From NCBI GenBank assembly GCA_916610825.1, contig OU744451.1, positions 18,003,307 through 18,067,306 of the forward strand: a stretch of 64,000 bases of DNA. The letters are read 5' to 3'. The translations under genes and the position numbers were made by a program. Shown here piece by piece: positions 4,201-64,000 of the stretch (position 1 is the stretch's first letter; each line of letters opens with the position of its first letter). The stretch comes from Haliclystus octoradiatus. Lineage: Eukaryota; Cnidaria; Staurozoa; Stauromedusae; Haliclystidae. The notes under the pieces were generated by a model that was not told where the DNA came from, did no database searches, and saw nothing but the letters and a program-made list of their open reading frames with translations.

Positions 4201-7200
4201 AAAAGCTTCCCTGCTGCATTTTGATAGTGTATTTGTGTTTGGCTGTGGTGTTCTGCCCTAATCCATAGAACCTTTGTTGTATTTGCTTGAATATTATACA
4301 GTATACAAGGAAATACGCGTAATTTGCTCCACATATTTTTACGGTTAAATAGCAAACAATGATTAATTAATAGTAAATAAATTAAACAAAAAATAATGAC
4401 TATAAAAATAGAAATAACCTCAATATACATTTGTATAATTAACCGATTTTAATTGACAGTGTCTCTATTCATATCGAGACATTACCATGTACTACAGACT
4501 ATACCATGTGAAGACTGCAATGCTAATAAATTACAAATCAACAGAAATACGCTACAGTTGGCTACAGTCACAAACAGATTACAAATAATGCATTTAGCCT
4601 CGCTTAGATATTACTGGTGTCATTTTCCGATGCAACATGTGGATATAATTGATCAAAAAAATATTTTTTGGACCAATTATTTCACAATTCCCCTTTTCCT
4701 GGAATTTCTCTCTGCGGCCCAGTCAATGAAGGATAATAACCATTAAATTGAATTTTACGGAACACCAATTAACTGGGGTGCGAACTTTTTATCAACTATC
4801 TGTAAATTTAAATGAGCGGTTTATTGACAGTTGAGGTTCATGGGAAAGTCATGAATTTCCTTGAAATAAGAAGTTTATAATGAACAACTTCGTTAAAGGG
4901 CCACTTAACTTAACCAAAATATTTATGACATTAATAGACATTTTTGATTTGTTCATAACCCATATGGAGAAAATTTGCTGAATTCAATGTTTCATGAACC
5001 GGTTGCTTAACAACCTTCCATGAACTCCCATGTGCGCCATTTACTCTTTAACTTATTTTGCAAAGGAATGTCCATGAGAGCTCTCTTTCAGATGTGTAAA
5101 TGAGGCTATAACTCGTTATTAACTCGTTAGTATAGCAGCCAAAAATATTTATATTTATGAAAGTGAATATAGGCTAATAATTAGAACTAGGGTGAACTCA
5201 GTTTGAAAGCTGATTACTATGTATTCCTGCTATCTTGTTTTCGCTGATTGAACCTTGAAATGCTACTTGGATGGCTCCATTCCATTAAACAAAATCAACA
5301 TGAATGGTAATGCGATATCTGGTTGCTATAATCTGTTTTGCCTTGTACGTATTCCGTCTTGTGAGACAAAGTCCATAAAACAGATAGAAAAACCTGGTAA
5401 AATCAATGTAGAGATTGAACTTCATTGAACTTGAGCAGCTATACTATCAACCTTTAAGAAGGCTTTGAATTCTCACTGCCAAGATTGAATACGTCCGCTT
5501 TCCAGTAGCAAATTGTTCATGTGCACCTAGCAAACAGCTCATGAAGAGTTCATGAAAATTAAATGGCTTGTTCTTCGTAACCGTTTATAGCTGTTGAGCT
5601 GATTTTACAGTGTTAAATTGTTACATATCTAAATGTTGATGATCTTTGTCTAATAATTCTAGAGTGCAGATTTTAAATTATTTCTGCTATTAGACCAGTT
5701 CAAGTAGTCCATGTGCACTTCTGAAAAATCTGTGAAATCAACAAAGGGCTTTTTGCAATGCTTTGTCTGATAATCTCTTACGGTGATAATATCAAGTTGC
5801 TGCTTTTATTAGATCCATCCAGCGACTGGTATATTAATGTTTGATTGTCCAACAAACGTTTTGAAAGAAAGACTGATGAAAAGAGCATTGACAAGTAATA
5901 GGTCAGATGATAACGAAGAAACGATTGAGAAGAGACTTTTAACTTTTGAAATGAAAACTCTTCCTGTCCTGCAACATTTTAGAGATAAAGTTATCAAGGT
6001 ATAAATATAATCTATAAATGTGATAATGACATCCTCAAAGTATACCCTGCGAAACAAGTTCATGAACGTTCATGAACTGCAAAGAATAGCTCATAAAAAA
6101 TATAGTTCATTAGCTCTTAAAATTCATGAACATTCATGAACTTTGATGAACTCAAACTCATCATTCATGAACTACATCCCTAGTTCATGAACTAGTTTTC
6201 AAAGTTCATAAACTATAATCCGAGTTCATGAACCAGTATTCAAAGTCCATGAACTATAAGCATGGTTCTTCATCATAATCATAATCAACAACATTCATGA
6301 ACTTTTTCGCAGGTGTATCGGCCACTCCAGTCTAGAGAGATGAATACTAATTGTATGCCACTATTTCCTTCTTTCCCGACAATGAAATTAATGTTATTTC
6401 TAATTAATCCTTAGGTGACACACATTTTGTGTAGTTTAGGATACGTTTTTCATGAAGCTTGTGAGCTTCATTCCGTGAATTTTACACTGTAACAATAGAT
6501 TGTGGAATTTTCAATCAGCTATTCATGAACTGTAAACAAATGTTGCTAAATTTAATTGAATTTCACTATCAGGAAAAATATTTATGGTTGTTTCCCCAAA
6601 ATATTTACTGACTTCATGAATGTCTATAAACATCCCCTGCGAGAAGCAGTTCAGGAGTTCTTGACCTGTTCATGAACTCCTTCATGACCTGTTCATGAAC
6701 TCCTGCATTGTTTTTTTCAGGGATATAAGGAACGTTCATGAAAATATGTACTATTCTATCAATAATAAAACACTCCATATCATGCCAAAAATTAAAGTAA
6801 CTGGCCCTTCATGTTGATCATTAAATTGCTGATAGCTGTGAAACATCAGTATTACAGAGTGCTCACAATTAGTCATATAACATAAGTATTAAGTATGCTA
6901 AATGATTTAAATATTATAGTTATGAATATTATACACTCAATCAGTAATGATGTCCTAATTAAGTTTGCCACAAAATCGTTTTGGTCCATGGGATAAGGGT
7001 CCACATTACTCATAAATATTTCATGAATGATGAAAAGTATATGCATATTTTATGGATATTTTATTGAGGTTTTATGAGCAATTTATAAACAAATTGATTC
7101 AAAGCTTATGAACTTGAAATCGCCCACAGGAGAACTGTTCAGGAAAAATCGTTCTAATTCTGTTTCATGAACTTGTGAACTTTTAGGGGATAAATTCATA

Positions 7201-10200
7201 GGGGATTAATCGTTTATGATTAAATCTGTTTTATTACACAGATCAATGCTAATAGAAGTATTAATGAGATTGCATCAGATCTAAAAAGAACTATTTGTAA
7301 AATAAATGATGGTAAGTAGCTCACTTGTTAGGGTATTTTGGGTTAAATCCCATTAGATTTATCATTGTGGTATAGGTCTACAGTCGAAATCAATATTGCA
7401 TTTTTGACAGGCAATAGGGTAATGTGATACAGTATTATAGTATATTAAATCCAAAACTTTATAAATGCTAGAAGAAATCTAATGGTAAGTCTTTTGTTGA
7501 TTTAAATAGATTTCATTTTGTAACAAAATATTTTGCGTTTGTCAAAGATGTTTCTACTTTTCGTAGAAGAAAAATGAGTTTTATTCACACATTTTTTGGA
7601 ATGATTCAATTTCTATGTCCATGAAATTTGAAGCCAAAATATAACAACAGATGCTTCGAAAATTTCTTTCACCTCTGAATTTTCTTACTTCCCTTTCGTA
7701 AAAAGTTTGTAAACAAATCATGAGCTTGATAAATGGTTCATGAGCTGTTCTTCAAAAGTTCATCAAATCCTAAAGTTTGAAGTTCCTAAACACACAGTAA
7801 ACAAGTTCATGGAATTTTATGAGAATTTTATGAGAATTTTAGCTTACACAGTTTGTAATAAAATGACAAGAAAGTGAGACAATCAACAATTGAATAATTT
7901 CAAAATTATAACTATTTTGCTAATGAACAAAACTTGTGCTTTTGAATCAAAGATTTATACAAAGCTTATTTTTTCCAACAGCAAGAAAATCGAAGAATTT
8001 CAATGATGAATTTCTCAAACAGCTTCAGAATGATATGCAACGTTCTGAAGATGAATACCCTGGCAACAACAGCAACTTTGGACGAGAACAATATCCAACC
8101 ACTGGATTAAATAGCAATGATCACCATGTCAAATTTCAAAGACAAGATAAAGTTGTCAATGAAGATATATGTGAATATAGCAACCCCCTATTTACTGGTG
8201 AAAATGGTTTGACTCAAGAACGGTTGGGTCATCGTCGATTTATCTCAATCATTGGTATATTTTCCACACACATTTATTGATATTGTTTATAACCAATTTA
8301 AAATACCCCCAATATCCCCAGTACTATAACTTTGGGTTGAACTGATTTATGAATATAGCAGCCAATTAAAAAATAACCACTACAGTATAGCAAGGTGTGC
8401 TTTATGCATTGGGTATTTCCAATATAATAACTATTTTCATATTATCATAAAATGACGTAAATGATTAAATGAACGCCTTAATTATATATAGAGAGGCATG
8501 ACAATTTGGATGTAGCAATGATTCAAAACCCTTACTACCAGGAATGGTGTCATGATTCCTCTAAAAAGGGGCTTACTCCCCTAAAGAGGGAGCTATTTAT
8601 AGAAAATAGTTTAAAAAAGCTCATTGAAGAAGCACCAAAAATTCCCCCCACAGTCGAAAGTTTTTTTCACTGATGAGGGAATCAATATCCCCAACAGAGG
8701 GACCGTAGCCCTTCCCCCTCTACTGACACAAAGTTTGACTTCTAACATGGGAGTATGTCAAGATGTTTCGAATGCAACGTGATCAATTGGACCGTCCATT
8801 GATATTAGAAATATACATGAATTCGTAAAGCGGCTGGTCTGACACGTGTTTCGTTCCTGCCAAGGAACTCATCAGAGACCTTTCTGATGTCGTAGCTCGT
8901 CAGGCATCGCGCCTGAATTCCCGCTAACGAATTGTAGTGACAACCTCGATGCATATCGCTTGCGCAGTCCCGGTTTAATAACAACGTGATTGATTAATCA
9001 ATTGATAAAGCGGCTGGTCTGACACGTGTTTCGTTCCTGCCAAGGAACTCATCAGAGACCTTTCCGGTGTCGTAGCTCGTCAGGCATCGCACCCGAAGTC
9101 CCGCTAACGAATTGTAGAGATGGTGACAACCTCGGTGCATATCGTGAATTCATCACTAAAATTTGTACATCATTTGAATGATATATTTTGATATAGACTG
9201 TATAGTGAGAGTGATCCACTATGTTGCTAATTTCATAATAGGTGATATCTAATTTTGCTTAACAAAATTCTGACGATATGGGGTATCTATTAATTGCTGG
9301 AAAATTCAAATGAATAAAAAGCAGAAATGTCGGAAATTTAGTATGTTTTCTATATCTATTAATTGTAGAGTAAGATAAGACTTATATTTATTGATTTATT
9401 TGTTTGTTTAATTATTAAAAACAGTCTTTTTGTGAAAATATGTGTTTACTTTACAGATATGCTTCCTAAAATGGCATATTCTAACAGTTGCTATTCATTA
9501 TATATATATATATAGCAGCAGACAAGTACATGTTTCTGGCCATTAGCCTTCATCAGTACTGCTCAGTGAGCGAACAAGGAACTGACTTCAGTATATAACC
9601 TAAGTCAAGATGAGTTATAAATGTGGTGAAAAAATTCATCACATGAAAAAAACATCTGTGCCATACCAGAGTGCTCAAACTACCGAAGTAGTGGGCAATG
9701 CATAGTGCAAATAGTATAGACACATCCCGAGTCGATAGTGCTCAAAATTGCGCATGCGCAATCGAGACATACATATAATAAAGTAATTGTGTGGGCAAAA
9801 CATCAATTTGAGTGCTCAATGCTAAAAGCAGAGCAATATAAATAGTAGATCAAAGATCACGAGTTTATTCCGTTACTCTGAGTTTCGCGTAAAGACGCTC
9901 TTCAGACGGTTTTATTAAATGAAAAATCATTACGGTGTGCTCAAGTATATACATGAATTAATGAAGCGTTTCTATTGTTTAAATATATTTATTACATTCT
10001 ATTGTATTATCGATGCTATTGTTAAATATCTACTTGTTATTCTTATAGTTTCTTAAATAATATTCCATATAATTATAGGAGAAATTCCATATAATTTATT
10101 ATAAACATGACAATTTACTAAATAAAAGAACGGAACTCATTTCTAAGTGCCGCCACGAAAACAAATATAACAATAAGAATAACAAGTAGATATTTAACAA

Positions 10201-13200
10201 TAGCATCGATAATACAATAGAATGTAATAAATATATTTAAACAATAGAAACGCTTCATTAATAATTCATGTATATACTTGAGCACACCGTAATGATTTTT
10301 CATTTAATAAAACCGTCTGAAGAGCGTTTTTACGCGAAACTCAGAGTAACGGAATAAACTCGTGATCTTTGATCTACTATTTATATATATATATATATAT
10401 AATAAAATAATGTTATCTGATAGCAGTTGAGATAGTGCTCAATGTCATTTGACAGAGCGGTGAATAATAATAATGAAATGAAGTCAAAGACTAAACATTC
10501 TTTTACTGTTACTTAAAGTTTCTCGCTTTATGCGATCATCAGACAGAATATAATATTAAACTAGTTATAATATACTAGTTTAATAGTATAATATTAAACT
10601 AGTTATAATATACTAGTTTAATAGTATATTCTGTCTGATGATCGCATAAAGCGAGAAACTTTAAGTAACAGTAAAAGAATGTTTAGTCTTTGACTTCATT
10701 TCATTATTATTATATATATATATATATATATAATATTATTTATCTTTATTTAGGTGCTACAAACACGGGTAAATCATCACTCTGTCAGCAATTATCAACT
10801 GTCTATGGCTTACATCATATCAACTGTGATCAATTGATTGACGATGAATGTGATAGAAAGACAAAGCTTGGTATGACAATCCAAAAATTCAAAGAAGACA
10901 AAGAAATGGTTCCAACTGTAAGTCCTATTCATGAGGGGAAGGGACTTCAATATGATTTTGACAGCAAATCTACAATCTGTGTAGTAGTATAGTCTCATAG
11001 AGAAAATCAATCAATCATATGGACATTTTGACTAAAAGAGAGTTATTGGAAATAGTCTAGAATTATTCACTACGATATTCTGAACAAATTAGAGACAAAA
11101 AATATTTTAAAATGTGCACCGGAATTAAGTTCCAGGCTCTAATTGTTAAAACTCAGATACAAATTAAAAGAGCCTGGAACTAGTTCTGGTGCACATTTTA
11201 AAATATATTTTGACTCTGATTTGTTCAGAATGTCATAGGGAATAATTCTAGACTATTTTAAATAACTATCTTCTAGTCAAAGTGTCCACATCGCTGGTTG
11301 ATTTTTTTTAAGGGACTATACTACTACACAGATTGTAGATTTGCGATTGTGACAGGGATTTGCCATTTTAAGAAATCCAAGAAGACGGTGAAATTTCACA
11401 GCAGATGAGATTGAAGACTCTAAAATTTAAAAATTGTTGAAGAACGCTTTATAATTTCATATTTTTACCGGGATTTCTACGACTAGAACAAATGAAAGTT
11501 TTGAAAAAAATTTAATATCTACTGCACATTTTTATGTCTAACGTTTACGCTTCCTAGACTTGGCGACTTGAGTCTTTCAGTCCAACATACATGAAAGATT
11601 CACTGTCTCCTTTAGTTTGTAATCACTACGTGATTCCCTCTGTATTCATCCACCATAACGACCAATGTTTATTTGAATTCAATCTCATATGTTTTCTTTC
11701 TCTTTTCGCTGAAGGGAATCATTATTCACTTGCTGGCCAAGGCTCTCGATGTTCTTCCAGATGATGCAGTTGTTGCATTCGATGGTTATCCAAAAGCTGC
11801 AGCTGATTTAACGAAATTTAGAATGGTGAGGGCAAAGATTTTTATATGCAATTATTGTTTCATTTTAAGTTTAAGATACAGAGTGTTAGTACCCAAGCAT
11901 CCATAACTTGGTTTTCAGACAGTTGATAATTCTGAGAAGAACGATTATTAAATAATTGACATTCGACATGTTGTTTTGAAGCTCGATAACATCAAAGTTT
12001 GTTGATACTATGAATTTCAAATATAAGCTAATTTGAAATCCAAATAGATTACTTTGAAAATGAGCACAAATTTATTAATTGAAAACCTTTCGATTAGCTG
12101 CTGGCCTCCAAGGAACCATGAGCCCTCATTTTATAGCTGCATATAGGACTACAGTCCGAGGATCGGTGTAGGTTTGTTGTAGGCTACTTGATGTCTACAT
12201 GCGATCGTACTTGGTAGATTTCCTTGTAATGACACCTGTATTGTGAGGACAGTATGTTCGTCTCTGAATATAAGTCACATGAGTTTCAGGGTTTGACTAT
12301 TAAATCACCCCAATTGACTGTTAAAGTAACATATCATATTTTTGCAACCAAAATCCAGAAAGAGGTAATATATCATTTTTAAATTAACGAAACTCTTTTT
12401 ACGTGGCTCCTGCTAAAACATCGCTTAACATCATTCGGAAGATTTTTATACGGATGATCTCATCCCATTTAAATATGGGACTTTTATGCATTGCATGTGC
12501 TATATATATACAAGGATGTTTTTTTTGGGGGGGGGGTGAAAACGTAGGCTTTTGTGTTACAGGCTAGCTCATCTTTTTACAGCATCACTTGCCTATAAAT
12601 ACTAATACTTGTCGGCAGTGAACAGAATCTGGAAGGATCTGACATAAGGTTTCGCATTCTGGACATCAAGAATCCTTCGGCATTTCAAAATTTTGATCTG
12701 AATTTTTTGCTGAAGTTTGGTATATAAATCATAAAAATACTAAGCCTTCTGTAATCTAGGAGCAAGTGCATATTGCCAGCATAGTCGTAACATCTTTACC
12801 CAAAAGATTACCTTTTTCAACTGGATATTACCAATCTGAAAATGATCTAGAATCAATCAGTATCTAACTTAAGACCAACACCATGCCAAAAATTACGAAA
12901 AAATGCTCACCGAAGCTAGTCCTAGGCCTTTTTGCCAATATTTATTGGGTCATCTTGAAACACAAACGTGTAAATTCTGTTTCAACCAATTTTCAAATCC
13001 TGAAATTCTGAAAAGTGGACCTCATGATGCCTTCGTTCATTTACTACAAATCTACTGCAAGCTTTTCATATACGATTAAAAATTAAAAAGTTATTCAACT
13101 TTGAAACTGTGCTAACATTTATTGTAATACCTTTTTTCTCTTTATTTATTTTATTTAAAAAACTCGCGGTAGATTTGTAGTAAATGTACAAAGGTACCAG

Positions 13201-16200
13201 ATGCAAATAGAATTTTGAAAATCGGTGGAAACAGAATTCGTTACTCGTTTTTGTAATTCTTGATGAACTGCATTTGGTTGTAAAGGTTTTTTTCTGAATA
13301 ACATCTGTTGCGATAATAAATCGTTGCCACTTGATCAGACCATGGACGTGAAACCATTATTTGTATTTCTATGAGATTTTACTGTTTTAATACTGTGATT
13401 TTATTTACTCAATTAGAGTTTTGGCTTTTCTAACATGATTGCAATTGAATCTCCTGTTGAAGACATTATCTCCAGAATCAAATCAAATAGTAATCAATTT
13501 TTGAAATATGGTAATAACGATGATGTATTGGCTTATGAAATTGATCGTCAGTTAAAACAAACGAAAGAGATGATTATGGAAATCAGTCAAAACCCATGGA
13601 TGCCAATCTCAACGGTATACTAATTAATTTCAAGATACAATTATGATAGACCATTAATGGTGCGTCATTATCTTGATTTGCTTGATAAACTGTTGCAGTG
13701 AATGTACTATATTGCGAATTGAAATTGAACAGTGATGTGAGAATTACTTTAGAAAAGTAATAAGTTACATAGCCTGCGAAGTTTTGTTTTGAGTCTGCAC
13801 GCAGGCTATAAATTACATTACAAATTACTTTTCCTCAAAAGTAGCTAATTACATTACTAATTACTTCAGCCGAAAAAGGTAATCAATTACACTTACTAAT
13901 CACTTTCTCAAAAAAGTAATTAATTACTAATTTAATTAGTTTTATTTAAATGACCAAAATTAGGACATGTCATTCAAATTAATCAAGCTATCTTAATTGT
14001 CATTCAATTTCAATTTGTGCGAAAATTTCCAAAATATGTTTTAAACGGCAAGAAAGTGATTCTTATACAAATGCATTATCCGTTATTGCCTTTTGGAACG
14101 ATCGTGGGTTTAAGATAATAGCATAAATGGTCAAATACATCAACGAGTCTATTTTTAATCGTAACTTTAAGTTCTTATTTCTTATAGCTTGGTTGATAGA
14201 GGACTGTTGACTTATTATTATGTTTGACTTTATTGAAATACCACGTATAGGCCTACTATTACTATTATTATTACTATTACTATTACTATTACTATTACTA
14301 TTACTATTACTATTACTATTACTATTACTATTACTATTACTATTACTATTACTATTACTATTACTATTACTATTACTATTACTATTACTATTACTATTAC
14401 TATTACTATTACTATTACTATTACTATTACTATTACTATTACTATTACTATTACTATTACTATTACTATTACTATTACTATTATTATTACTATTACTATT
14501 ACAATACAGAAAATATTTACAATTAAAATTTATTTACAATTCAGAGAACTAACAATGAAAATCGTTGTCAATTTTGACTTGCACAATCACACACTGTCCT
14601 ATTGTATACACGTGTAGATGAATCGAAAAAGTTTCACAACCGACATCCGATAAAGAATCATGAATACTATATATACTGCCTTCCAATAGGCAAGAGCCTC
14701 TACTCCCATGTTCTGCTCCATGAAACCGAGTCTAACGTATAATCATACAGGGTAACAAAATTAATGTTGCCTATAATATAGCCTTCATAAACAATACGCC
14801 GCTCCGTGGTTTTCATTTGGGGTCGGGAAGCAATAGTTAAATCATTTTCATCATTAGTTAGTTCACAAAATTTGGTTCACCTATTTATACGTTGCGCATT
14901 GTCATGGTTTTATGCAAGTGAATTTATTCTCAAACATGATATACTGTGGCGTTGCTTCATTGTGGCAGTTTTCAGCTACTTCATTCTATCTCATTTAAGC
15001 AATTATAAGCATACGTCGAAATTAAAACGATGGCATTTTATTTTTCAAAATCTTCCCGATATGCATATATCTTAATTTTTCGTCTACAATCCTGCGTGAC
15101 GGAATTGTCAATAGATAGATAAAGTCTCCGTATACTTTAGCAAACTCATTTGATCTTTACCTATATAGTTAGCTAAATTGTAAAAATACATTTGATAAAC
15201 ATCTCTATGCAGAAAGGATAATCCAAAATCCCATGTTTGATCATGTTAATGTAACCTTTGACTCGTTATATATGCTCCAGATTAAGAAATATATATATGG
15301 TCATTTGGAGACATTTGTGCACCAAAACGAAGATTTTTTGAAAAACATGGAAAGAATCTATATCAAACATATTTTCATTGTTACATTTCGCTCGCGATTT
15401 ATTAGTTCCAATTTGCAGAATCATTACAGACAAATATGTCATTTTTTCTGTCGCGGCGAATAATTAGATTGTTCCAATCTTAAATAAGTGATTGACTGAC
15501 ACAAGATTACTTAACAAAAGCGATATTTATTTCTGCTTTCAAAATTTTGTCAAAAAAAACTTTTTCTTGTAACAACTTTCCTAATCCTCTCTTAAAGCGC
15601 ATTATAGTTTTTACGTGGTAATAAACATATGGTTTGCGTTTATAAATTATGTTACAAATGGATCATATCACAATTATTCTAGTTTCTCATCTTACATGTG
15701 TATTATATCTTATATCTTATTATTAATTTAGTATTTAAATGTACTTCACTCATAACATGAACACCTGATTTATAAGAAATCATAGAAATATATTATCTAT
15801 TGTTTTCGAACATGATCACGTGATTAAATTGATTGTCTCTCATTCTAGTCACGTGGTTATTGTATTGTTTCTAGATTGTAAATAAAGGTGAATCGATCGG
15901 TGAACTTGTCGAAGAGGTGTGTGAGCTATTGATTGTAGAAGGACAGACCGAATTCAAATCGAATTTCTACACTTTAGAGATGGAACAACAAAATATTATT
16001 TTTGTTTTGGGTAAGTAGTTTTATCGAATAATATAAGAAATAATATAAATGTTGACGAGCTCCTGCCGAATTTAATCAAAGAAACCTCGCATTATGTCTT
16101 ACCATTGGCTGTTTACTTTACCGTTTATCAATAAATACACTTCAATATTAAACTGTATTACAGTACTATAAAGTAATCAATTATGATGTACGTCCAAATA

Positions 16201-22429: not shown

Positions 22430-25400
22430 ATGAGTGGATATCCTGGACAAGGACAGGTATGGAAATAAAACTACAGTGAAACCTGTATATAACGGCCAGC
22501 TACGAGAGGTAGATAAATTGACCACTATAGACAGGTGGCCTTTATATACACGTTTGATTCAATAGAAAATACTATTTTGGACATTGCAAGAGTGACCACT
22601 ATAGACAGATGGCCGCTGTATAGAGGTAACCGCTATAACAGGTTTGACTGTAGCAAGAAAATATAAACATTGGAATATACGCAGATAAATGACAAGCGTC
22701 CGTGACAGTTAGCAAGCTAGACCGAATCTCTTAACAACATTAAACCTTAATTATATACATTATTAGACTATTATGTCATCTAAGATAATATATATATACT
22801 CCAAACATGTTTAGGTCTAAATCTTAATGACTAGACCTACTTGATTAATCTGCTATATAAATTGATAGAGATTTGTTTAATGATTGTCACATCTGTTATA
22901 TGTTTAAAGAGTATATAGCCTAGTTCATACTGTAGCCTACACATTCCGATTCTATTTAGATGGAGTAATCATTTAGGTCAATTTCAATCATATGAATAAT
23001 CTGGTTTTAGATGCCCTTCCAAGAATTTCATGCATAAGTTTACATCTAATGTAATCATTTCAAATAACGTTTATGAACAGCAAGGCATTCTTATTCATTT
23101 CATACAGTATACTTCGTTGCGAGTCAATCTTCAGCTATAGGTTGACACTTATTAGGATCAGCACATGTATCAACCTCATATGAACCACACCTAAAGAGTA
23201 ATGTGCCACCGCTATATATATTTGAACTACACTACAGTATTATATAATGCATGCAAATACAACCAAACCTTTTATAATGGTCACCTCTATACACATTATA
23301 TAACAGCCAGATACGGCCCTGGAAGTCAACTTCAATTGTTCTCGGCAGCCATTATGTTTGATGCTACTTTTGGTTGCTAACAAATTGTTTATTTTTGCAG
23401 CAAGGAGATGGCCAATACCCTCCTCCAGGTGGCAATCCTATTGGTCAACAACCACCGGCTGCACAACAGTACCCAGCACTTGCAGGTGGTCAATATCCCC
23501 CTCCTGCTGGCGGTCAATATCCCCCTCCTGCAGGGGGTCAATATCCCCCTCCTGTAGGTGGCCAGTATCCCTCTCCTGCTGGGCAATATCCACCTTCGTC
23601 ATATCCTCCTGGACCTCCTGCTGGATTTGTCACACAGGTTAGTAAACATATCAAGTATTGTGTATAATTTATCTATCGTCATTCATGCTGTATTTAATTT
23701 ATGATGTATCGACTACAGTTGAACTCGGGTAATATGCCCTCTTTAAATATCCCCACATATAATTCATTTCTATTTTCCATTCTCCATGCAAACTCTCATA
23801 ATCCTACCTTGATTAATATCCCACCTCGCTTAATGTCCTGCTTTTTACCTGTACCAGAGGGGGATATTAAGCAAGTTCGACTGTAAAATCAATGAGCCTG
23901 CTGATACACCGAGCACTAGACAAAAAACAGACAGCGCTACGGTCAAATATGCTTTAATTGCCATACTGATAGAGCAGTCACTCATCTGGAACGGTCACAT
24001 TAATTAGTTCTCTTTCCATGTTATTCTTGTTTCCATACAATCCCCCAAAGAGCAGTCATGCAACAGGTTGGCTAATTTATTACATTGAGAAATATGCTTA
24101 CATACCGTAATATGCATCATTACTTGTTCAACTTGAACCTTCATTTTTTTTTACTTTTTCAACCTCGACTGGAGAATTCCACATTTTTAAAATATAAATA
24201 TATAATACTTTCAAAAGTAAATTGTAGTATCAGTATATCACTGGCACTAATATGCCTATTTTTGAAATCCTTTACAGCATGTAGATACATGGCCTGTATT
24301 ATTTTGCTTGTTTAATTGCCTTCAAGGGGATTTTGAATTGTTGATATTCTTCTCGTGAAGCTATTTCAATTGAAACTTGCTTTTAAAAGATCTTAAATAT
24401 CCACATCCTTCATTACATTAAGCACTGTTGAGCTAGTTCTATTCTAAAGCGTGTTTCCTCTTCCTGATTCATTTTCATAGCATAGGCACATGCAATCGAA
24501 CTCAGTTACTGTCCCCTGCGAAAAACAGTTCAGTAGTTCATGAACAGTTCATGAACAGTTCATGAACGTTAAATGGCTCCAATCTTCCTGAACTGTTCAT
24601 GAGCTGTTCATGAACTCCTGAACTTTTTTTTCAGAGGCTGTCCCCTTTTTATTGTCCTTCCTTGCGTAATATCCCCACATAAAACTGATCTCAATGTTCC
24701 TTTCTCCATACAAACTCTCATATGCTTACCTTGCGTAATATCCCCACATAAAACTGATCTCTATGTTCCTTTCTCCATACAAACGCTCATATTCCTACCT
24801 TGCGTAATATTCCCACATAAAACTGATCTCTATGTTCCTTTCTCCATACAAACTCTCATATTTCTACCTTGCTTAATATCCCCACATAAAACTGATGTCC
24901 ATGCTCCTTTCTCCATACAAACTCTCATATTCCTACCTTGCTAATTGCCCCATTTTTCATCCTCACCAGAGGGAGTTTATTAAACAAGTTTTACTGTATT
25001 TTTCTACATGTATTGATTCATTAACAGCTATTAGGTCTACTAAATTTAATAATCTCTGTGGTTATTCATTAGCCTGGTACAGGATACCCACCTACTGGTC
25101 CACATCCACCTGGTAGCGATTTGGCATATCCTCCATCGCATCCTGGACCAGCACATCATGTGAGTATCTCCGCATAGATTTGGCATTTATTATTAATAAA
25201 TTGTTAATAAATAATAAAACTATTGATTCATTTCACCTTTATAGAATCTTTGTTAAAGATAGTTAACATGTTAATGCTATATTTTGCTTGTACGTAATTA
25301 CCTAGAATTGATGTAAGCTTCTTAATAATGTGTCTTTCTCAAACTTCTCTGACAATGCTAATTAAATAATAAATACAAACATTTGTATTTATCATACAAA

Positions 25401-45496: not shown

Positions 45497-48282
45497 ATGC
45501 TACGAAAAACATTAATATTACTTTTATTACTTATCATTGGCGATATTTATATCAGTTTTGGTTTCAGAATCGAAAGTCAAATCGATGAAAATCAATCTGC
45601 TACAGACATACAGGTAAGCTATACAATTATGTATATTCTGTTAAAAAAAACTAAAAAAGTACATCAGATGTAAATCAACATTCACAAGAAGCTTAATTTC
45701 TCATTATTTATTTAGACGCCATCGGATTGGGGGTACCATCATATCCAATCATTAATTGTGTTTATTACTCTTCTATGATTTAGGTAATGCTGTCTCAAAT
45801 TAGCTCTTACAGAAGAACTACAGCCAAATCAACACAGAAAACTGCATCTTCAACTCATCCTGACATAACGCAGATTACAAGGCCATCAACCAAGCCTACA
45901 ACAGGACCATCAACACGAAAGACCACATCTTCTACTCGTGGTACAATCAAGGGGACTACAAGACCATCAACGAAGCCTACTACTAGACCATCGACACGAA
46001 AGACCGCATCTTCTACTCGAGGTACAACCAAGGGAACTAGAAGACCATCAACGAAGCCTACAGCTAGACCATCGACTCGAAAGACCGCATCTTCTACTCG
46101 TGGAACAACCAGGGGGACTACAAGACCATCAACGAAGCCTACAACTAGACCATCGACACGAAATACCGCATCTTCCACTCGTGGTACAACCAAGGGGACT
46201 ACAAGACCATCAACGAAGCCTGCAACTAGACCATCGACACGAAATACCGTATCTTCCACTCGTGGTACAACCAAGGGGACTACAAGACCATCAACGAAGC
46301 CTACAACTAGACCATCGACACGAAATAGCGCATCTTCCACTCGTGGTACAACCAAGGGGACTACAAGACCATCAACGAAGCCTACAACTGGACCATCGAC
46401 ACGAAAGACCGCATCTTCCACTCGTGGTACAACCAAGGGGACTACAAGACCATCAACGAAGCCTACAACTAGACCATCGACACGAAAGACCGCATCTTCT
46501 ACTCGAGGTACAACCGAGGGAACTAGAAAACCATCAACGAAGCCTACAACTAGACCATCGACACGAAATACCGCATCTTCCACTAGTGGTACAACCAAGG
46601 GGACTACAAGACCATCAACGAATCCTACAACTAGACCATCGACACGAAAGACCGCATCTTCTACTCGAGGTACAACCAAGGGAACTAGAAAACCATCAAC
46701 GAAGCCTACAACTAGACCATCGACACGAAATACCGCATCTTCCACTCGTGGTACAACCAAGGGGACTACAAGACCATCAACGAATCCTACAACTAGACCA
46801 TCGACACGAAAGACCGCATCTTCTACTCGAGGTACAACCAAGGGAACTAGAAAACCATCAACGAAGCCTACAACTAGACCATCGACACGAAAGACCGCAT
46901 CTTCTACTCGTGGAACAACCAGGGGGACTAAAAGACCATCAACGAAGCCTACAACTAGACCATCGACGAAGCCTACAGCTAGACCATCGACACGAAAGAC
47001 CGCATCTTCTACTCGAGGTACAACCAAGGGAATGACAAGACCTTCAACGAAGCCTACAGCTAGACCATCGACACGAAAGACAGCATCTTCTACTCCTGGT
47101 ACCACAAAGGGAACAACAAAACCATCAACGAAGCCTACAGCTAGACCATCGACTCGAAAGACCGCATCTTCTACTCGTGGTACAACCAAGGGGACTACAA
47201 GATCATCAACGAAGCCTACAAGTAGACAATCGACACGAAATACCGCATCTTCCACTGGTGGTACAACCAAGGGGACTACAAGACCATCATCGAAGCCTAC
47301 AACTAGACCATCGACACGAAAGACCGCATCTTCTACTCGAGGACCATCGACTCGAAAGACCGCATCTTCTACTCGAGGTACAACCAAGGGAACTAGAAGA
47401 CCATCAACGAAGCCTACAACTAGTAGACTATCGACACGAAAGACAGCATCTTCTACTCCTGGTACCACAAAGGGAACAACAAAACCATCAACGAAGCCTA
47501 CAGCTAGACCATCGACTCGAAAGACCGCATCTTCTACTCGTGGTACAACCAAGGGGATTACAAGATCATCAACGAAGCCTACAAGTAGACAATCGACACG
47601 AAATACCGCATCTTCCACTGGTGGTACAACCAAGGGGACTACAAGACCATCATCGAAGCCTACAACTAGACCATCGACACGAAAGACCGCATCTTCTACT
47701 CGAGGACCATCGACTCGAAAGACCGCATCTTCTACTCGAGGTACAACCAAGGGAACTAGAAGACCATCAACGAAGCCTACAACTAGTAGACTATCGACAC
47801 GAAAGACAGCATCTTCTACTCCTGGTACCACAAAGGGAACAACAAGACCATCAACGAAGCCTACAGCTAGACCATCGACTCGAAAGACCGCATCTTCTAC
47901 TCGTGGTACAACCAAGGGAACAACAAGACCATCAACGAAGCCTGCAACTAGACCATCTACACGAAAGACCGCATTTTTTACTCGTGGTACAACCAAGGGG
48001 ACTACAAGACCATCAACGAAGCCTACAACTAGACCATCGACACGAAAGACCGCATCTTCTACTCGAGGTACAACCAAGGGAACGACAAGACCATCAACGA
48101 AGCCTACAACTATACCATCGACTCGAAAGACCGCATCATTTACTCGTGGTACAACCAAGGGGATTACAAGACCATCAACGAAGCCTACAACTAGTAGACT
48201 ATCGACACGAAAGACTGCATCTTTTACTCGTGGTACCACCAAGGGGACTACTAGACCATCAACTTATTATTATAGAGAATAG
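45497..48282 (+). CDS. Secreted basic Thr/Ser-rich mucin, dystroglycan-derived
   Basis: Two exons: 45497-45613 (39 codons: signal peptide with a leucine/isoleucine core at residues 5-14, then a short GFRIESQID segment) and 45784-48282 (stop TAG), 871 residues in all. Exon 2 is nearly all 27-residue repeats of the form TTKGTTRPSTKP...STRKTASSTRG. The repeats have no cysteine and are rich in Thr, Ser, Pro, Arg and Lys, so heavy O-glycosylation and a strong positive charge are expected. No transmembrane segment or globular domain is visible, so the product should be secreted. The signal exon resembles that of the dystroglycan-like gene at 52371 (IESQ-x-D) and the repeats resemble its first mucin block. 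I infer a tandem duplicate that lost the S6, cadherin-like, SEA and membrane parts. A non-productive copy is possible, but the frame is intact over 2.5 kb. Confidence 0.75.
45862..48265 (+). repeat. 81-bp coding tandem repeat (about 29 units)
   Basis: The unit is 81 bp. There are higher-order steps: a 162-bp dimer recurring around 46500-46860, and a 363-bp block recurring from about 47222 to 47585, made of four units plus 39 bp. Because the period is a multiple of three, other frames and the opposite strand also stay open; those are by-products. Confidence 0.93.
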
Positions 48283-55300: not shown

Positions 55301-58300
55301 AACACAGTTGAATGAGAACCGTATAGGAATAGTCTCCTTTTGGAAACTTGCATAGAATTTTTGAGAGAAAATGAATAACAATACTCGACTATCTATCTAC
55401 ACTCACCACTACTAATATTACTATTCGGGAAAATAAGAGGATATAAGGAATGGATGAGCATATCTGAGTACAAGATGAGTCAGCTGAAGGCTGTTTACAA
55501 TAGCAATTACATAAAATAAGGCTACTATGCACAATAAGATCCTCAGGTCTATAATGATCATGTGAGTAAGTCCTGGAGGGCTGCTATTTAATGGAATCAA
55601 ATCATATTTATTTATAAGGGTACCTATATCTTGAATGGTCAGTTGCATCAGGCTTAAATAGCTGGCTGAAATACATAGGAGTGAAGATATTTTGAATTAC
55701 TTTATTCATGTATCAGTCTTCATTACTTTATTCGTTTCACATTTTGACCATTTCTGCCAATAGATGCAAATAGAGCTGCCAATAGATAAAAAAAATAAAT
55801 TAAGTAAAAGCAATTGTATTAAAAAAAAGACTATATAATAACATCAATTGCATTTTCATTTTAGACCAACAACCAGGCAAATCACAACAACCCCTGCATC
55901 AACTTCTACACAAGTCACAACAAAATCCTCAACACGTCCAACACCTGAGTCTACAACAAGAGCATTGACACAGAGGACCACTTCTTCTACTCGAGAAACA
56001 ACAAAATCATCAACGCGCCCAACATCAAAGTCTACAACAAGACCATCGACACAGAGGACAACTTCATCATATACTCGAGCAACAACAAAATCGTCAACAC
56101 GTCCAACACAAAAGTCTACAACAAGATCATCGACACAGAGGACAACTTCATCTACTCGAGCAACAACAAAATCATCGACAAGTCCAACACCTGAGTCTAC
56201 AACAAGACCATCGACACAGAGGACAACTTCAAATACTTGGGTAACAACAAAATCGTCAACACGTCCAACACAAAAGTCTACAACAAGACCATCGACACAG
56301 AGGACAACTTCATCTACTCGAGCAACAACAAAATCATCAACACGTCCAACAGCAGGGTCTACAACAAAACCATCGACAGAGAGGACAACATCGACTACTC
56401 CAGCAACAACAAAATCATTAACACGCCCAACATCAAAGTCTACAACAAGACCATCTACAGAGAGGACTACTTCATCTACCCGAGCCACGACAAAATCCTC
56501 CACACGTCCAACACCTGAGTCTACAACAAGACCATCTACAGTTAGGACTACTTCTTCTACTCGAGCAACAACAAAATCCTCAACACGTCCAACACATGAG
56601 TCTACAACAAGACCATCTACAGAGAGGACTACTTTTTCTACTCGAGAAACAACAAAATCCTCAACACGTCCAACACATGAGTCTACAAAAAGACCAACAA
56701 CAGAGAGGACAACTTCATCTACTCGAGCAACAACAAAATCCTCAACACGTCCAACACCTGATTCTACAATAAGACCATCTACAGAGAGGAAAACTTCATC
56801 TACTCGAGCAACAACAAAATCCTCAACACGTCCAACGCCTGAGCCTACAACAAGAACATCAACACAAATGACTATGTCTTCTACTGGAAAGACTTATGGA
56901 CCAACAATGATACCATCTACCCATCCGAGTTCAATGTCTTCAACAAGATCATCAACATCAATAAAAACTTCTTCTACAAGAGCTACAGAGACAGTTACCC
57001 CTATTTCAACAACAGTCACAACAAATATTGTAAGTACGGTGGATATTTTAACACAAGAAATATCTACAATAGGACAAGTTCTAACCACTGTTACAAATAC
57101 ACCGTCAACTCAACATGGAACAACAATAGCAACTGGTCCTGTTACATTTCAGTCTACCTCTCCTTCGTCTACTAATAAACCATCAACTGCATATCCAACT
57201 GATGCTACAACAAAAAGTACTTCATCTCAACCAACAACATCACATCACACTCAGAAGCAAACAACCCAGCATCCAACAACAGTAGAAACTGGTCCTGTTA
57301 CATCTCAATCTACCTCCGCTTCATCTACTAATAAACCATCAACTGCATATCCAACTGATGCTACAACAAAAAGTACTTCAACTCAACCAACAACATCACA
57401 TCACACTCAGAAGCAAACAACCCAGCATCCAACAACAGTAGAAACTGGTCCTGTTACATCTCAATCTACCTCCGCTTTGTCTACTAGTAAACCATCAACT
57501 GCATATCCAACTGATGCTACAACAAAAAGTACTTCATCTCAACCAACAACATCACATCACACTCAGAAGCAAACAACGCAGCATCCAACAACAGTAGAAA
57601 CTGGTTCTGTTACATCTCAATCTACCTCCGCTTTGTCTACTAGTAAACCATCAACTGCATATCCAACTGATGCTACAACAAAAAGTACTTCATCTCAACC
57701 AACAACATCACATCACACTCAGAAGCAAACAACCCAGCATCCAACAAAAGTAGAAACCGGTTCTGTTACATCTCAATCTACCTCCGCTTCGTCTACTAGT
57801 AAACCATCAACTGCATATCCAACTGATGCTACATCAAAAAGTACTTCATCTCAACCAACAACATCACATCACACTCAGAAGCAAACAACGCAGCATCCAA
57901 CAACAGTAGAAACTGTTCCTGTTACATCTCAATCTACCTCGGCTTCATCTACTAATAAACCATCAACTGCATATCCAACTGATGCTACAACAAAAAGTAC
58001 TTCAACTCAACCAACAACATCACATCACACTCAGAAGCAAACAACCCAACATCCAACAACAGTAGAAACTGGTCATGTTACATCTCAATCTACCTCCGCT
58101 TCATCTACTAATAAACCATCAACTGCATATCCAACTGATGCTACAACAAAAAGTACTTCAACTCAACCAACAACATCACATCACACACAGAAGCAAACAA
58201 CCCAACATCCAACAACAGTAGAAACTGATCATGTTACATCTCAATCTACCTCCGCTTCGTCTACTAATAAACCATCAACTGCATATCCAACTGATGCTAC

Positions 58301-61300
58301 AACAAAAAGTACTTCATCTCAACCAACAACATCACATCACACTCAGAAGCAAACAACCCAGCATCCAACAACAGTAGAAACTGGTTCTGTTACATCTCAA
58401 TCTACCTCCATTTTGTCTACTGGTAAACCATCAACTGCATATCCAACTGATGCTACAGCAAAAAGTACTTCATCTCCACCAACAACATCACATCACACTC
58501 AGAAGCAAACAACCCAGCATCCAACAACAGTAGAAACTGGTTCTGTTACATCTCAATCTACCTCCGCTTTGTCTACTAAGAAACCATCAACTGCATATCC
58601 AACTGATGCTACAACAAAAAGTACTTCATCTCAACCAACAACATCACATCACACTCAGAAGCAAACAACCCAGAATCCAACAACAGTAGAAACTGTTCCT
58701 GTTACATCTCAATATACCTCCGCTTCATCTACTAATAAACAATCAACTGCATATCCAACTGATGCTACAACAAAAAGTACTTCAACTCAACCAACAACAT
58801 CACATCACACTCAGCAGCAAACAACCCAACATCCAACAACAGTAGAAACTGGTCATGTTACATCTCAATCTACCTCCGCTTCATCTACTAATAAACCATC
58901 AACTGCATATCCAACTGATGCTACAACAAAAAGTACTTCAACTCAACCAACAACATCACATCACACACAGAAGCAAACAACCCAACATCCAACAACAGTA
59001 GAAACTGGTCATGTTACATCTCAATCTACCTCCGCTTCGTCTACTAATAAACCATCAACTGCATATCCAACTGATGCTACAACAAAAAGTACTTCATCTC
59101 AACCAACAACATCACATCACACTCAGAAGCAAACAACCCAGCATCCAACAACAGTAGAAACTGGTTCTGTTACATCTCAATCTACCTCCGTTTTGTCTAC
59201 TGGTAAACCATCAACTGCATATCCAACTGATGCTACAGCAAAAAGTACTTCATCTCAACCAACAACATCACATCACACTCAGAAGCAAACAACCCAGCAT
59301 CAAACAACAGTAGAAACTAGTTCTGTTACATCTCAATCTACCTCCGCTTTGTCTACTAAGAAACCATCAACTGCATATCCAACTGATGCTACAACAAAAA
59401 GTACTTCATCTCAACCAACAACATCACATCACACTCAGAAGCAAACAACCCAGCATCCAACAACAGTAGAAACTGGATCTATTACATCTCAATCTACCTC
59501 CGCTTCATCTACTAATAAACCATCAACTGCATATCCAACTGATGCTATAACAAAAAGTACTTCATCTCAACTAACAACATCACATCACACTCAGAAGCAA
59601 ACAACGCAGCATCCAACAACAGTAGAAACTGTTCCTGTTACATCTCAATCTACCTCGGCTTCATCTACTAATAAACCATCAACTGCATATCCAACTGATG
59701 CTACAACAAAAAGTAGTTCATCGCAACCAACAACATCACATCACACTCAGAAGCAAACAACCCAGCATCCAACAACAGTAGAAACTGGTCCGGCTACATC
59801 ACAATCTACCTCCGCTTCGTCTACTAATAAACCATCAACTGCATATCCAACTGATGCTACAACAAAAAGTACCTCATCTCAACCAACAACATCACATCAC
59901 ACTCAGAAGCAAACAACCCAGAATCCAACAACAGTAGAAACTGGTCCGGCTACATCACAATCTACCTCCGCTTCGTCTACTAATAAACCATCAACTACAT
60001 ATCCAACTGATGCTACAAAAAAAAGTAGTTCATCGCAACCAACAACATCACATCACACTCAGAAGCAAACAACCCAGCATCCAACAACAGTAGAAACTGG
60101 TCCGGCTACATCACAATCTACCTCCGCTTCGTCTACTAATAAACCATCAACTGCATATCCAACTGATGCTACAACAAAAAGTACCTCATCTCAACCAACA
60201 ACATCACATCACACTCAGAAGCAAACAACCCAGAATTCAACAACAGTAGAAACTGGTTCTGTTACATCTCAATCTACCTCGGCTTCATCTACTAATAAAC
60301 CATCAACTGCATATCCAACTGATGCTACAACAAAAAGTACTTCATCTCAACCAACAACATCACATCACACTCAGAAGCAAACAACCCAACATCAAACAAC
60401 AGTAGAAACTGGTCCTGTTACATCTCAATCCACCTCCGCTTCATCTACTAATAAACCATCAACTGCATATCCAACTGATGCTACAACAAAACGTACTTCA
60501 TCTCAACCAACAACATCACATCACACACAGAAGCAAACAACCCAACATCCAACAACAGTAGAAACTGGTCCTGTTACATCTCAATCTACCTCCTCTTCTT
60601 CTACTAAGAAACGATCAACTGCATATCCAACTGATGCTACAACAAAAAGTACTTCAACTCAACCAACAACATCACATCACACACAGAAGCAAACAACCCA
60701 ACATCCAACAACAGTAGAAACTGGTCATGTTACATCTCAATCTACCTCCGCTTCGTCTACTAATAAACCATCAACTGCATATCCAACTGATGCTACAACA
60801 AAAAGTACTTCATCTCAACCAACAACATCACATCACACTCAGAAGCAAACAACCCAGCATCCAACAACAGTAGAAACTGGTCCTGTTACATCTCAATCTA
60901 CCTCTGCTTCATCTACTAATAAACCATCAACTGCATATCCAACTGAAGCTACAACAAAAAGTACCTCATCTCAACCAACAACATCACATCACACTCAGAA
61001 GCAAACAACCCAACATCCAACAACAGTAGAAACTGGTCCTGTTACATCTCAATCTACCTCCGCTTCATCTACTGATAAACCATCAACTGCATATTCAACT
61101 GATGCTACAACAAAAAGTACTTCATCTCAACCAACAACATCACATCACACTCAGAAGCAAACAACCCAACATCCAACAACAGTAGAAACTGGTTCTGTTA
61201 CATCTCAATCTACCTCCGCTTCATCTACTAATAAACCATCAACTGCATATCCAACTGATGCTACAACAAAAAGTACTTCATCTCAACCAACAACATCACA

Positions 61301-64000
61301 TCACACTCAGAAGCAAACAACCCAACATCCAACAACAGTAGAAACTGGTCCTGTTACATCTCAATCTACCTCCGCTTCATCTACTAATAAACCATCAACT
61401 GCATATCCAACTGATGCTACAACAAAAAGTACTTCATCTCAACCAACAACATCACATCACACTCAGAAGCAAACAACCCAACATCCAACAACAGTAGCAA
61501 CTGCAAAATCTACAATATATTACCCAGTGTCCACACCAGATAGCATTACAACAGAAACAACAAGCTCTAGCAGTACTGTTACACATTATCCAACGGAACA
61601 TAGTACGATCACAGATACATATCCAACACAAAAGAAAACAACTGGTAAAACATCATCGACATTACAATCAACTACTATGATGCCAAGCACAACATTCTTC
61701 CCAACAACGAAGACTAGTAATCCAAGGTAAGATTCATATTAATATTTTAAAGCAATCAATTCTAAATATAGAATGGATGTCATCTGTAACTTTTCCCTAA
61801 AATCTATAAATTCTCTGTTTAACTTTACCAAGTAAGCTGTGAATATCCTCATATCAAGGTTTTAAATCATTAATGTCATCATCGTAGCAAATAATTACCT
61901 CAACATTTTTATTGTGGTTAATATTTTTCAAATGTGGATTTTTAATCGTTGATTGATTGGAGAATTAAAAAGGCTATCATAATCAAATGCAACTCAGTGA
62001 AATATTTTTTATTGGTAATTAAATAATGTTGAACAAATGCTATAAAATAATTAACCATTTGACTGTGAACCTAGGCATATACAGTCCAACAAAAGGTGGG
62101 GGTGATTGGGTCCTAGATTGTGGAAAGATTTAGAGCAGATTCAGATGAAATGATTCTGATTTATGAGTCAAATTTAGGAATATCCAGAAAAAAAAGCTGA
62201 AAATAATTTAGGGTTTCGGGAAGGGCTCGAAAACTTTGGTCAGATACTGCCTGTTGATTTTATTGAAATAACTGCCGGTAGTTTCAAAATTTCAAACTGA
62301 GGCATTACCTTTATATATATATTTTTTTTTCTAGTACTGTATGTGTCGCCCCCAATTTGATGTTTCCTGTTGGTGAGATTGATACAATACCTGGTCAAAG
62401 TACAATATTAAATATCACAGAAGTATTTTTATCAGATCCATATCAACTTCTATTCATCAGAGTAGAATTAACCGAAGAAATTGATTCATGCTGGTTTGAA
62501 TATAACGAAACAAGTACACTATTAACCATATTCCCATTTGTCAATTTACTAAATGGAAAAAGAAGTCGCATTTTTAATTTCAAAATTATTGTTGAAAATG
62601 GTTGTGGATCTGTGTCTAAAGTACCATTTCAAGTACAAGTGAATGAAATAATTCAAAATCCATGTTTTGAAGTGGAAGTTATATTCACTAGCGACAAGGA
62701 ATTAGAATGTGAGTTACAGAATATACAAAATATGACTGATAAAATAGTGGAATATTTGCAATTGAATGATTCAAAAGATTTTATATTAATCAACTATAAT
62801 AAAATATCACCATTCTCAAAGAAACAATCATTGACATTTACGTTATCACAAGAAGTATTTCCATGCAAGGCATGCAATGCCGAAAAATTAGCAAATATTA
62901 CAGAAAAACTTGTTAACGAAAATGGTACTGTTAATCCAGAATTTATTGCGTTTGTTTATCCAACACATTATGTTCATAACGTTACAACAACAAAAATAAA
63001 TCGATGCACTTTAGTTGGTATCATTCCAACATCAGATGATGGAACACCATTTTGGGTAATTTTGTTACCAATTCTGATATTTCTGTTAGCCTTATTATTA
63101 ACATTATGTTTAGTATGCTGTTGTAAAAAACGATGGTGTGCTAATCTTTTATTTCCGCAAAGTAATGAAGAATCAAGTTGTTCGTATACTAATTCAACAA
63201 TTCGACGCGAATTTGAAAGAAGTTGTCAACATACAGCAATAGCAGTTCCTGAAACAGCATCTTTAACATCAACATCGTATGCACATAGGAATACTCTATA
63301 CAAGAACAAGAATACACCAAAACCATCAAGTAATGAATTTCATGGTGATAATGCAATATATAATGATGGTACTATGTTCTTTCTACCAATCGCTGAAGAA
63401 CAAGGACCAATGAAGAAACAAGATAGAAATGCGCAGCGTATGAATCAAAATTCACCTTTAAAGGCACAACCAAGAGGAATGAATGAAACAAAGGATACAA
63501 CAGTATACCCTCACACTGACAACGATCAATCACGGCAATCACAAAGAATGATGCAGAATGACGACCAACCGATAGATGCTAATACTCATTACTTCATTCC
63601 AACACAAGTACCTACTAACGATGATGCTATTGTTCTTCATCGGACACCACCTGAGTTTTACCCACCACCACCACCCCCTCTTTCACCAACGCCATCATCA
63701 TCCCCATATCCTGATCCTGGGCCACCACCTCCACCGCCTGCATTTCAACCACATACTGACGATTTAGGATATGGCACATTAGAAGGCGATCGAACAGCTT
63801 ATAATATTAAGGTTGAAAGAGAAGGACCAAACAATGGATTGAAACAACACAATAATATGAATCTTCCAATTGCATTAAATATGATTCAAGGTCGCAGTTC
63901 ACAAGATCAAACAAAGCAGTCACAGAGGTTAAATAATAGTATGGACCTTAGTAACCAAGGAAATAAGGTTAATTTCAGTCATGGGTTTGGAGGACAAGAT
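52371..64000 (+). CDS. DAG1: Dystroglycan-like transmembrane mucin, 3' partial
   Basis: Cell-surface receptor of the dystroglycan type, linking extracellular matrix to the cytoskeleton in known animals. Exons: 52371-52499, 54209-54699, 55865-61726 and 62335 to beyond the edge; phases agree. About 2716 residues are in the window. Order: signal peptide (1-24), RQRR furin-type site at about 46-49, S6-like domain (60-195; features LDC near its middle and AWSLIGYS near its end), two mucin blocks (225-535 and 626-2084), cadherin-like domain (2163-2275), SEA-like beta-dystroglycan domain (to about 2390, with CNAEKLANITEKLVNENG), transmembrane helix (2399-2422) and a tail with PPEFYPPPPPP. Human dystroglycan has an extra N-terminal Ig-like domain, absent here, and a mucin region of only about 170 residues. 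The Gly-Ser cleavage site is not conserved. The C-terminus, where dystrophin binds, lies beyond the window. Confidence 0.82.
53847..53898 (+). repeat. 17-bp tandem repeat
   Basis: Three copies of TCACAGGTGGTCCTCAT in dystroglycan-like intron 1. No further role is evident. Confidence 0.9.
54209..54699 (+). other. S6-like domain exon after a furin-type site
   Basis: The exon opens with LSRQRRSP, a furin-type RxRR site, and then encodes a fold resembling the second half of the alpha-dystroglycan N-terminal region: an alpha-helical segment (REGLINKIATFYNF), a strand ending QLDCMKT and the closing AWSLIGYS. In human alpha-dystroglycan the furin site follows this domain; here it precedes it. Confidence 0.68.
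54798..54974 (+). mobile_element. 177-bp pogo/Tigger-like MITE, dystroglycan-like intron 2
   Basis: CAGTGAAACCTG...GGTATGACTG flanked by TA at 54796-54797 and 54975-54976. Very close to 22474-22650. A decayed partial relative follows at about 55090-55225. Confidence 0.85.
55918..56850 (+). repeat. 81-bp coding repeat, first mucin block of dystroglycan-like gene
   Basis: About 11 units of 27 residues of the form TTKSSTRPTPESTTRPST then QRTTSSTRA. Lined up with the repeat of the neighbouring mucin gene it is the same length and matches at most Thr, Ser, Arg and Pro positions, so the two arrays are homologous. Confidence 0.88.
57121..61496 (+). repeat. 156-bp coding repeat, second mucin block (28 units)
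   Basis: Twenty-eight units of 52 residues with TNKPSTAYPTDATTKSTSSQ and PTTSHHTQKQTTQHP at the core. Each unit carries a His-His pair and usually one more histidine. A five-unit block (780 bp) starting at the ETVPV unit near 57909 recurs at 58689, and the same unit appears again at 59625, showing higher-order duplication or conversion. Confidence 0.95.
61727..62334 (+). other. Dystroglycan-like intron 3
   Basis: A 608-bp intron with a pyrimidine-rich acceptor (TTTTTTTCTAG). I see no element or exon in it. Confidence 0.6.
62335..64000 (+). other. Cadherin-like, SEA-like, membrane and cytoplasmic exon
   Basis: The open frame runs without interruption to the window edge. The cadherin-like part starts VCVAPNLMFPVGEID. 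The SEA-like part ends TTTKINRCTLVGIIP, where human dystroglycan has the Gly-Ser cleavage site just before the matching Cys; here Gly-Ser is replaced by Lys-Ile. The helix from FWVILLPIL ends at a CCCKKRW stop-transfer. The tail contains proline-rich stretches at about 63645-63745, possible WW or SH3 targets. Confidence 0.8.

Follow-up and report, generated by a model that had tools for sequence, protein, structure and literature searches.

Why should one intron of an adenylate-kinase gene contain seven hammerhead ribozyme motifs? The question arises in the staurozoan cnidarian Haliclystus octoradiatus, in a 64,000-nucleotide (nt) stretch of DNA that we analysed (GenBank assembly GCA_916610825.1, contig OU744451.1, positions 18,003,307 to 18,067,306 of the forward strand; hereafter, the window, whose numbering we use). 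An initial annotation had placed the motifs between positions 8836 and 10671 and had read the intron as a landing site or nursery for ribozyme elements of at least three kinds. The answer that we consider probable is that mobile elements accumulated in the intron: two joined units of a retrozyme-like family (A), one unit of another (D) and 5′-truncated, head-to-head Penelope-like elements (PLEs) of two families (B and C), with two-ended target-primed reverse transcription by PLE machinery as the proposed mode of insertion of B and C.

The motifs themselves are secure as patterns. A descriptor that required a CUGANGA core, a stem II of at least 3 base pairs (bp) with a basal mismatch tolerated, GAAA, a stem III of at least 2 bp closing in U-H and a stem I of at least 4 bp, with G-U pairs allowed, found seven sites across the window. 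These are exactly the motifs first listed, on the same strands. No site was found in 100 first-order Markov shuffles of the window, and a chance origin of the motifs was set aside. The CUGANGA...GAA core, three helices and an NUH cleavage site are present in all seven, although in motif 3 (family D) stem II starts with A opposite A. By these features they are putative type I hammerhead ribozymes, which would be expected to cleave themselves. They reduce to four sequences: A (motifs 1 and 2, a 180-nt direct repeat), D (motif 3), B (motifs 4 and 5) and C (motifs 6 and 7), the last two pairs being inverted copies. The seven are therefore not independent motifs. As the descriptor demands pairing, only the diversity of stem II variants is informative; 20 variants were listed in the genomic loci that we fetched, one of which is a misparse.

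The covariance-model check proposed with the initial annotation stayed below the cut-off. At the gathering threshold, Rfam gave no match in the window and none of the seven motifs exceeded the cut-off; in E-value mode across positions 8400–11000, Hammerhead_1 (RF00163) was matched by motifs 1 and 2 only, with a score of 25.2 bits (cut-off, 34 bits). A whole-genome search with RF00163 returned nothing, and its controls were equally silent, so that search is uninformative. The motifs share the core, three helices and NUH site with RF00163 and differ from it in their score and in their tiny stem III, the strands of which are self-complementary (8 of 8 positions in A, 8 of 9 in both B and C, and 10 of 12 in D), as in PLE-associated dimeric variants. 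Such variants were reportedly described by Lunse 2017, as cited in PMC7761336; hammerheads in PLEs are said to have been described by Cervera 2014, and permuted PLEs by Craig 2021. When five sequences were folded as monomers, the complete hammerhead was the predicted minimum-energy structure in none. The predicted centroid fold of family C, as an isolated monomer, contains stems I and II, and monomer stability showed no clear excess over shuffles (z from +0.06 to −1.62). The family A dimer is predicted to fold as a paired hammerhead.

All four families are abundant. Searches of the 262-Mb genome with ribozyme patterns (≤3 mismatches) yielded 201 copies of A, 631 of B, 685 of C and 680 of D, with none for reversed-pattern controls. 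For finer analysis, we fetched 98 loci (the first exact matches by contig), which merged into 60 stretches totalling 205 kb, and added the window. Tandem spacing is 144 and 180–186 nt in family A and 260–261 nt in family D, each short unit having one hammerhead as in animal retrozymes, although the D copy in the window is a single unit. Family C has tandem copies around 2.5 kb apart, and the pseudo-long terminal repeats (pLTRs) of B and C are tandem or inverted, with a tail, as in PLEs. We recognize two PLEs (B and C), a retrozyme that shares PLE signals (D) and a retrozyme without such signals (A). This bears out the proposal that the motifs belong to PLE and animal retrozyme elements, several of which landed in one place, and sharpens 'at least three kinds' to four families. 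Family B also includes a head-to-head array with 352-nt spacing, 5 minus-strand and then 7 plus-strand units (contig C2:13912559-13916564), known by positions only and possibly a pLTR-only retrozyme of the PLE; it was absent among the 42 matches listed for a query with window positions 10051–10262 (287 candidates, 40 scored). Other hammerhead families, in which stem II begins with a U-U mismatch (CTGATGATCGCCTTGGCGTGAAA, for instance, in locus L025 and others), bring the genome's total to more than four.

The copies of B and C in the window are 5′-truncated PLEs. That of B retains the last 21 codons and the stop codon of the PLE open reading frame (ORF; 10124–10189, plus strand). A Pfam scan of ORF pieces and homologues for reverse transcriptase (RT) or GIY-YIG domains gave no usable match, so we turned to structure prediction; a sequence search of the PDB likewise returned no match. 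The model of the homologue P0002 (pLDDT 88) matches solved RTs (best E = 1.1e-8), with telomerase among the best fold matches, and the motifs FD..FYPSI and YRDDG are conserved. For the C-terminal domain model, 8 of the 10 best matches in a viral library are named GIY-YIG or endonuclease (best E = 1.5e-3, probability 1.00). Matches to PDB folds are weak (E of at least 0.67) and include Endo II, Hpy188I and the UvrC GIY-YIG domain; Y-x-G, R, H and E are conserved in the alignment. With an RT that has telomerase among its best fold matches and a candidate GIY-YIG-like C-terminal domain, the family would resemble the Penelope/Poseidon element PAc of Anolis (PMC11167929) and rotifer Pen2a (PMC3846280). 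These hammerhead PLEs and B and C also have in common a ribozyme placed shortly before the region in which RT starts, tandem or head-to-head pLTRs, a 'tail' on one inverted pLTR and AT-rich targets.

The copies end in a regular way. On the 3′ side of the ribozyme, copies stop at one of two fixed points: S, or L, which lies around 58–64 nt beyond. Same-family neighbours no more than 150 nt apart face outwards in 9 of 10 cases in B and 12 of 13 in C, and outward-facing pairs nearly always have one end of each kind. Typed by ribozyme, 15 of 16 B pairs (one unclassified) and 17 of 18 C pairs are S+L; typed by BLAST of the tails in the fetched loci, 18 of 19 B and 27 of 29 C pairs are (45 of 48 together), with 14 B and 26 C tails left unpaired. 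In the B exception the L tail is partly lost; of the two C exceptions, one lies inside a tandem array that as a whole is bounded by S and L, and the other (contig C1, 18.93 Mb) is unexplained. A genome-wide test of family B used two patterns, with 273 L and 133 S places, and took the 100 listed of each, which overlap the fetched loci in part. Of the 40 outward pairs among these listed places, 38 combine L with S (P = 7e-10 compared with independent halves). The remaining two are L+L pairs on contig C6, and each is followed 2.44 kb further on, on the same strand, by an S copy, in a tandem-like arrangement. We found no statement of a one-S-one-L rule in the accessible text of PMC11167929, PMC3846280, PMC7761336, PMC12910113 and PMC7229834, from which the novelty of the rule is not established. 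In the published PLEs, as far as that text goes, the tail is optional and around 30–40 bp long, unlike the nearly invariable S/L pairing over around 58–64 nt seen here.

Most ends adjoin an AT microsatellite. An AT run (at least four TA, TTA or TAA units within the next 45–50 nt) adjoins 21 of 29 S ends and 14 of 23 L ends in B, 36 of 45 S ends and 33 of 39 L ends in C, and 21 of 24 S ends in D. Of 29 C pairs, 21 allowed the microsatellite to be typed on each side, and in all 21 it is the same on both sides; trinucleotide flanks read as one strand in 8 of 8. This prevalence of AT microsatellites at the ends is a further difference from the published PLEs, as the available text describes them.

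What B, C and D land in is AT microsatellites rather than the intron as such. The nursery reading does draw on the crowding of four families into 1.9 kb and on the three (TA)n tracts of the intron, which at 16, 20 and 22 nt are the longest TA runs of the window (all others are ≤12 nt). We nevertheless regard it as very unlikely, because there are hundreds of copies of each family genome-wide (201–685), B, C and D form comparable clusters elsewhere, and the common factor is the microsatellites beside most of their ends. Within 1.5 kb, B-seeded loci include D in 5 of 21 and C in 3 of 21 (0.16 expected each), and D-seeded loci include B in 6 of 22 (0.16 expected) and C in 3 of 22. C-seeded loci, with B in 1 of 21 and D in 1 of 21, show no significant excess, and none of the 7 A-seeded loci has B, C or D nearby; one B locus (L014) nonetheless contains an A copy with 3 mismatches.

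The unequal ends bear on a second alternative. Near-perfect inverted arms (94–125 nt in the window pairs) and high copy number are what might be expected if the B and C pairs were DNA transposons or miniature inverted-repeat transposable elements, with long terminal inverted repeats that contain hammerheads by chance. To this we give still less credence than to a nursery: one arm ends at S and the other at L, the spacing between arms varies from 14 to 2,752 nt, tandem 2.5-kb units include RT-type ORFs, and the end of the PLE ORF lies within a window copy.

The mechanism that we favour is two-ended priming. The PLE protein, with its RT and GIY-YIG-like nuclease, would break both strands of an AT microsatellite, and each DNA end would prime reverse transcription just 3′ of the ribozyme, with L used at one end and S at its counterpart. 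Both complementary DNAs (cDNAs) would run back across the ribozyme towards the 5′ end of the RNA and then be joined, leaving two outward-facing ribozymes. Inverted pLTRs with a tail on one side would follow because both RT start sites are used, with L and S at opposite ends of the break. The purified PLE protein of Anolis cuts and extends both strands and prefers AT-rich DNA, and its RT starts at two internal sites that bound the tail of the element, with no difference between the strands (PMC11167929). The B and C data are consistent with two-ended priming in which each end has its own start site.

Family D suggests that the same machinery serves a second type of element. The motif TTGAGCACT has four copies in the window, the only ones there, all on the minus strand between positions 9670 and 10442: they lie at 9670 and 9737 inside D, and at 9811 and 10434 between S and L of B and C, respectively. 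In the 205 kb of loci it occurs 117 times compared with around 1.3 expected, an excess that partly reflects choice because the loci were picked for these elements. Counting the D unit from just after S, and ends from the D insertions listed, 23 of 29 3′ ends fall at position 259–261 (S), 2 at 57–58 (an L-like distance) and 4 elsewhere. Some 5′ ends coincide exactly with the unit start and the others are truncated to varying extents, and the ribozyme side is kept in 21 of the 23 partial D matches among those listed. Because D targets are mostly microsatellites, target-site duplications are unreadable there. The 261-nt D unit, with its order S – TTGAGCACT – L, probably goes back to the same enzyme, with circular or multimeric RNA generated by the D ribozyme as the template; such copying would give tandem units with a truncated last unit.

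PLEs have previously been suggested as the movers of animal retrozymes (in the consulted parts of PMC7229834 and PMC7761336), and the motif and S/L layout shared by D are evidence for that suggestion. The available text of PMC7229834 describes animal non-LTR retrozymes of coral, mussel and axolotl with tandem units of 150–450 nt, one type I hammerhead each, and hundreds of copies; A units (144–186 nt) and D units (260–261 nt) are similar. Family D differs from them in sharing TTGAGCACT and the S/L layout with PLEs of its own genome, a comparison made on DNA only. The broader proposition, that PLE integration is a coordinated two-ended reaction with one L and one S per insertion, which D-like S – TTGAGCACT – L retrozymes parasitize, we put forward tentatively, at somewhat short of an even chance.

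Several observations weigh against two-ended insertion. The two arms of a pair have private variants in common and resemble each other more than shuffled arms do; a microsatellite-like stretch is present at S sites (ATTATTATT in C); and in family D a single locus provides the head-to-head arrays, those on contig C8 being directed inwards. Self-priming was, moreover, proposed for rotifer PLEs, from palindromic junctions, in the accessible portion of PMC3846280, which reports head-to-head pLTRs with an optional tail on one. Applied here, that account would have a single DNA end prime at L, with the cDNA folding back and copying itself while the AT-rich S anneals across the microsatellite. The likeness of the arms means that both come from one source RNA or locus, which limits the two-ended model accordingly and makes self-priming compatible with the data. 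A test for two different templates of the paired arms gave the opposite sign.

We nevertheless judge self-priming unlikely, at roughly one chance in a handful. A spacer-free perfect palindrome joins the arms in 5 of 34 pairs (two of the five resemble one duplicated insertion) and a 1-nt centre joins them in 2 more, structures that are impossible from a hairpin loop without later trimming. The D insertions that use S as their 3′ end, and the extension of both strands by purified PLE protein in vitro (PMC11167929), also argue against it. Among the nearest D neighbours (≤1.5 kb), there is one '-+' pair and one '+-' pair, so that head-to-head order is not a rule in D; at the '-+' locus (contig C1, 18.926 Mb) each end is an S end. 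The cores are no more than 62 nt apart in 18 of 34 pairs, which a transcription start just 5′ of the ribozyme would explain.

The intron itself can be read from left to right as a succession of such insertions: the A dimer, (TA)n, one D unit, the L-arm and S-arm of B, (TA)n, the L-arm and S-arm of C, (TA)n and the exon. The A dimer (8817–9144, minus strand, outer limits approximate) is a 180-nt direct repeat with one hammerhead per unit: motif 1 (8836–8880, with a predicted GUC cleavage site and a palindromic stem III) and, 180 nt from it, motif 2 (9016–9060), both on the minus strand. A (TA)n tract (9499–9514) marks the S end of the D element, which is exactly one 261-nt unit (9512–9772, minus strand) ending at its S site in that tract and containing motif 3 (9514–9563, minus strand). 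The inverted arm of the B PLE (9779–10050, minus strand) runs to the L site, with its L end at 9779, its S position at 9837 and motif 4 (GUA site; 9870–9909, minus strand); its inner limit is where likeness to the other arm stops. The B arm to the S site (10119–10385, plus strand, inner limit approximate) resembles its partner from 10169, yet the PLE coding end at 10124 lies within it, as does motif 5 (10313–10352, plus strand). A second (TA)n tract (10382–10401) adjoins both elements, B at its S end and C at its L end. The inverted arm of the C PLE (10399–10565, minus strand) runs to the L site at 10399, with its S position, read from the sequence, at around 10463 and motif 6 (GUA site; 10506–10546, minus strand). 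The C arm to the S site (10612–10713, plus strand) contains motif 7 (10631–10671, plus strand), and the third (TA)n tract (10711–10732) lies at the S end of C.

The host gene is on the plus strand and has several adenylate-kinase exons: PF00406 scored above the cut-off in 6 of the 7 exon frames tested, and the frame at 10687–10992 scored 24.6 bits, just below the cut-off of 26.8. The exon 3′ of the intron spans 10754–10920, its splice limits being estimates from the sequence. Motifs 5 and 7 are in the sense orientation relative to the gene, and motif 7 is around 85 nt 5′ of this exon, an arrangement that might suggest that the ribozymes were recruited to regulate adenylate-kinase pre-mRNA. Of all of the readings considered, we find this the least credible. 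Five of the seven motifs are antisense, copies are spread genome-wide, and each sense motif has a 99% complementary arm 5′ of it. The B and C pairs are predicted to fold into hairpins of −360.5 and −192.2 kcal/mol (z = −33 and −32), and paired arms should form such long hairpins in host pre-mRNA, so that nothing points to a role in the expression of adenylate kinase, and control of the gene by the ribozymes would not be expected.

That hammerheads occur in PLEs and retrozymes is already known. Of specialist interest are the pairing of S with L ends in families B and C and the motif shared with D, on the understanding that the available text of the cited papers does not establish the rule as new. 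As far as that text extends, these papers leave open what the hammerhead does, how inverted pLTRs arise and which enzyme mobilizes animal retrozymes. Two PLE families, both abundant and with nearly identical copies, are available in this genome, together with a retrozyme that shares a short motif with them. The one-S-one-L rule can be counted, bears on two-ended priming versus self-priming and is applicable to any PLE-rich genome.

Other repeats occur in the window. Just 3′ of the adenylate-kinase exon is another inverted repeat (10964–11344; 164-nt arms, 87% complementary, with a 53-nt spacer), in which the descriptor found no hammerhead. A (TACTAT) hexanucleotide array occupies 14254–14502 (41 copies, 98% matches), and a short palindromic repeat based on GTTCATGAAC recurs at 2729–2841, 6164–6259, 6657–6708 and 24535–24616. 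Two long Thr/Ser-rich, mucin-like tandem-repeat ORFs (45784–48279 and 55842–61727) have repeat units of 81 nt and 156 nt and are open for 832 and 1,962 codons, respectively, the second with strong GC skew.

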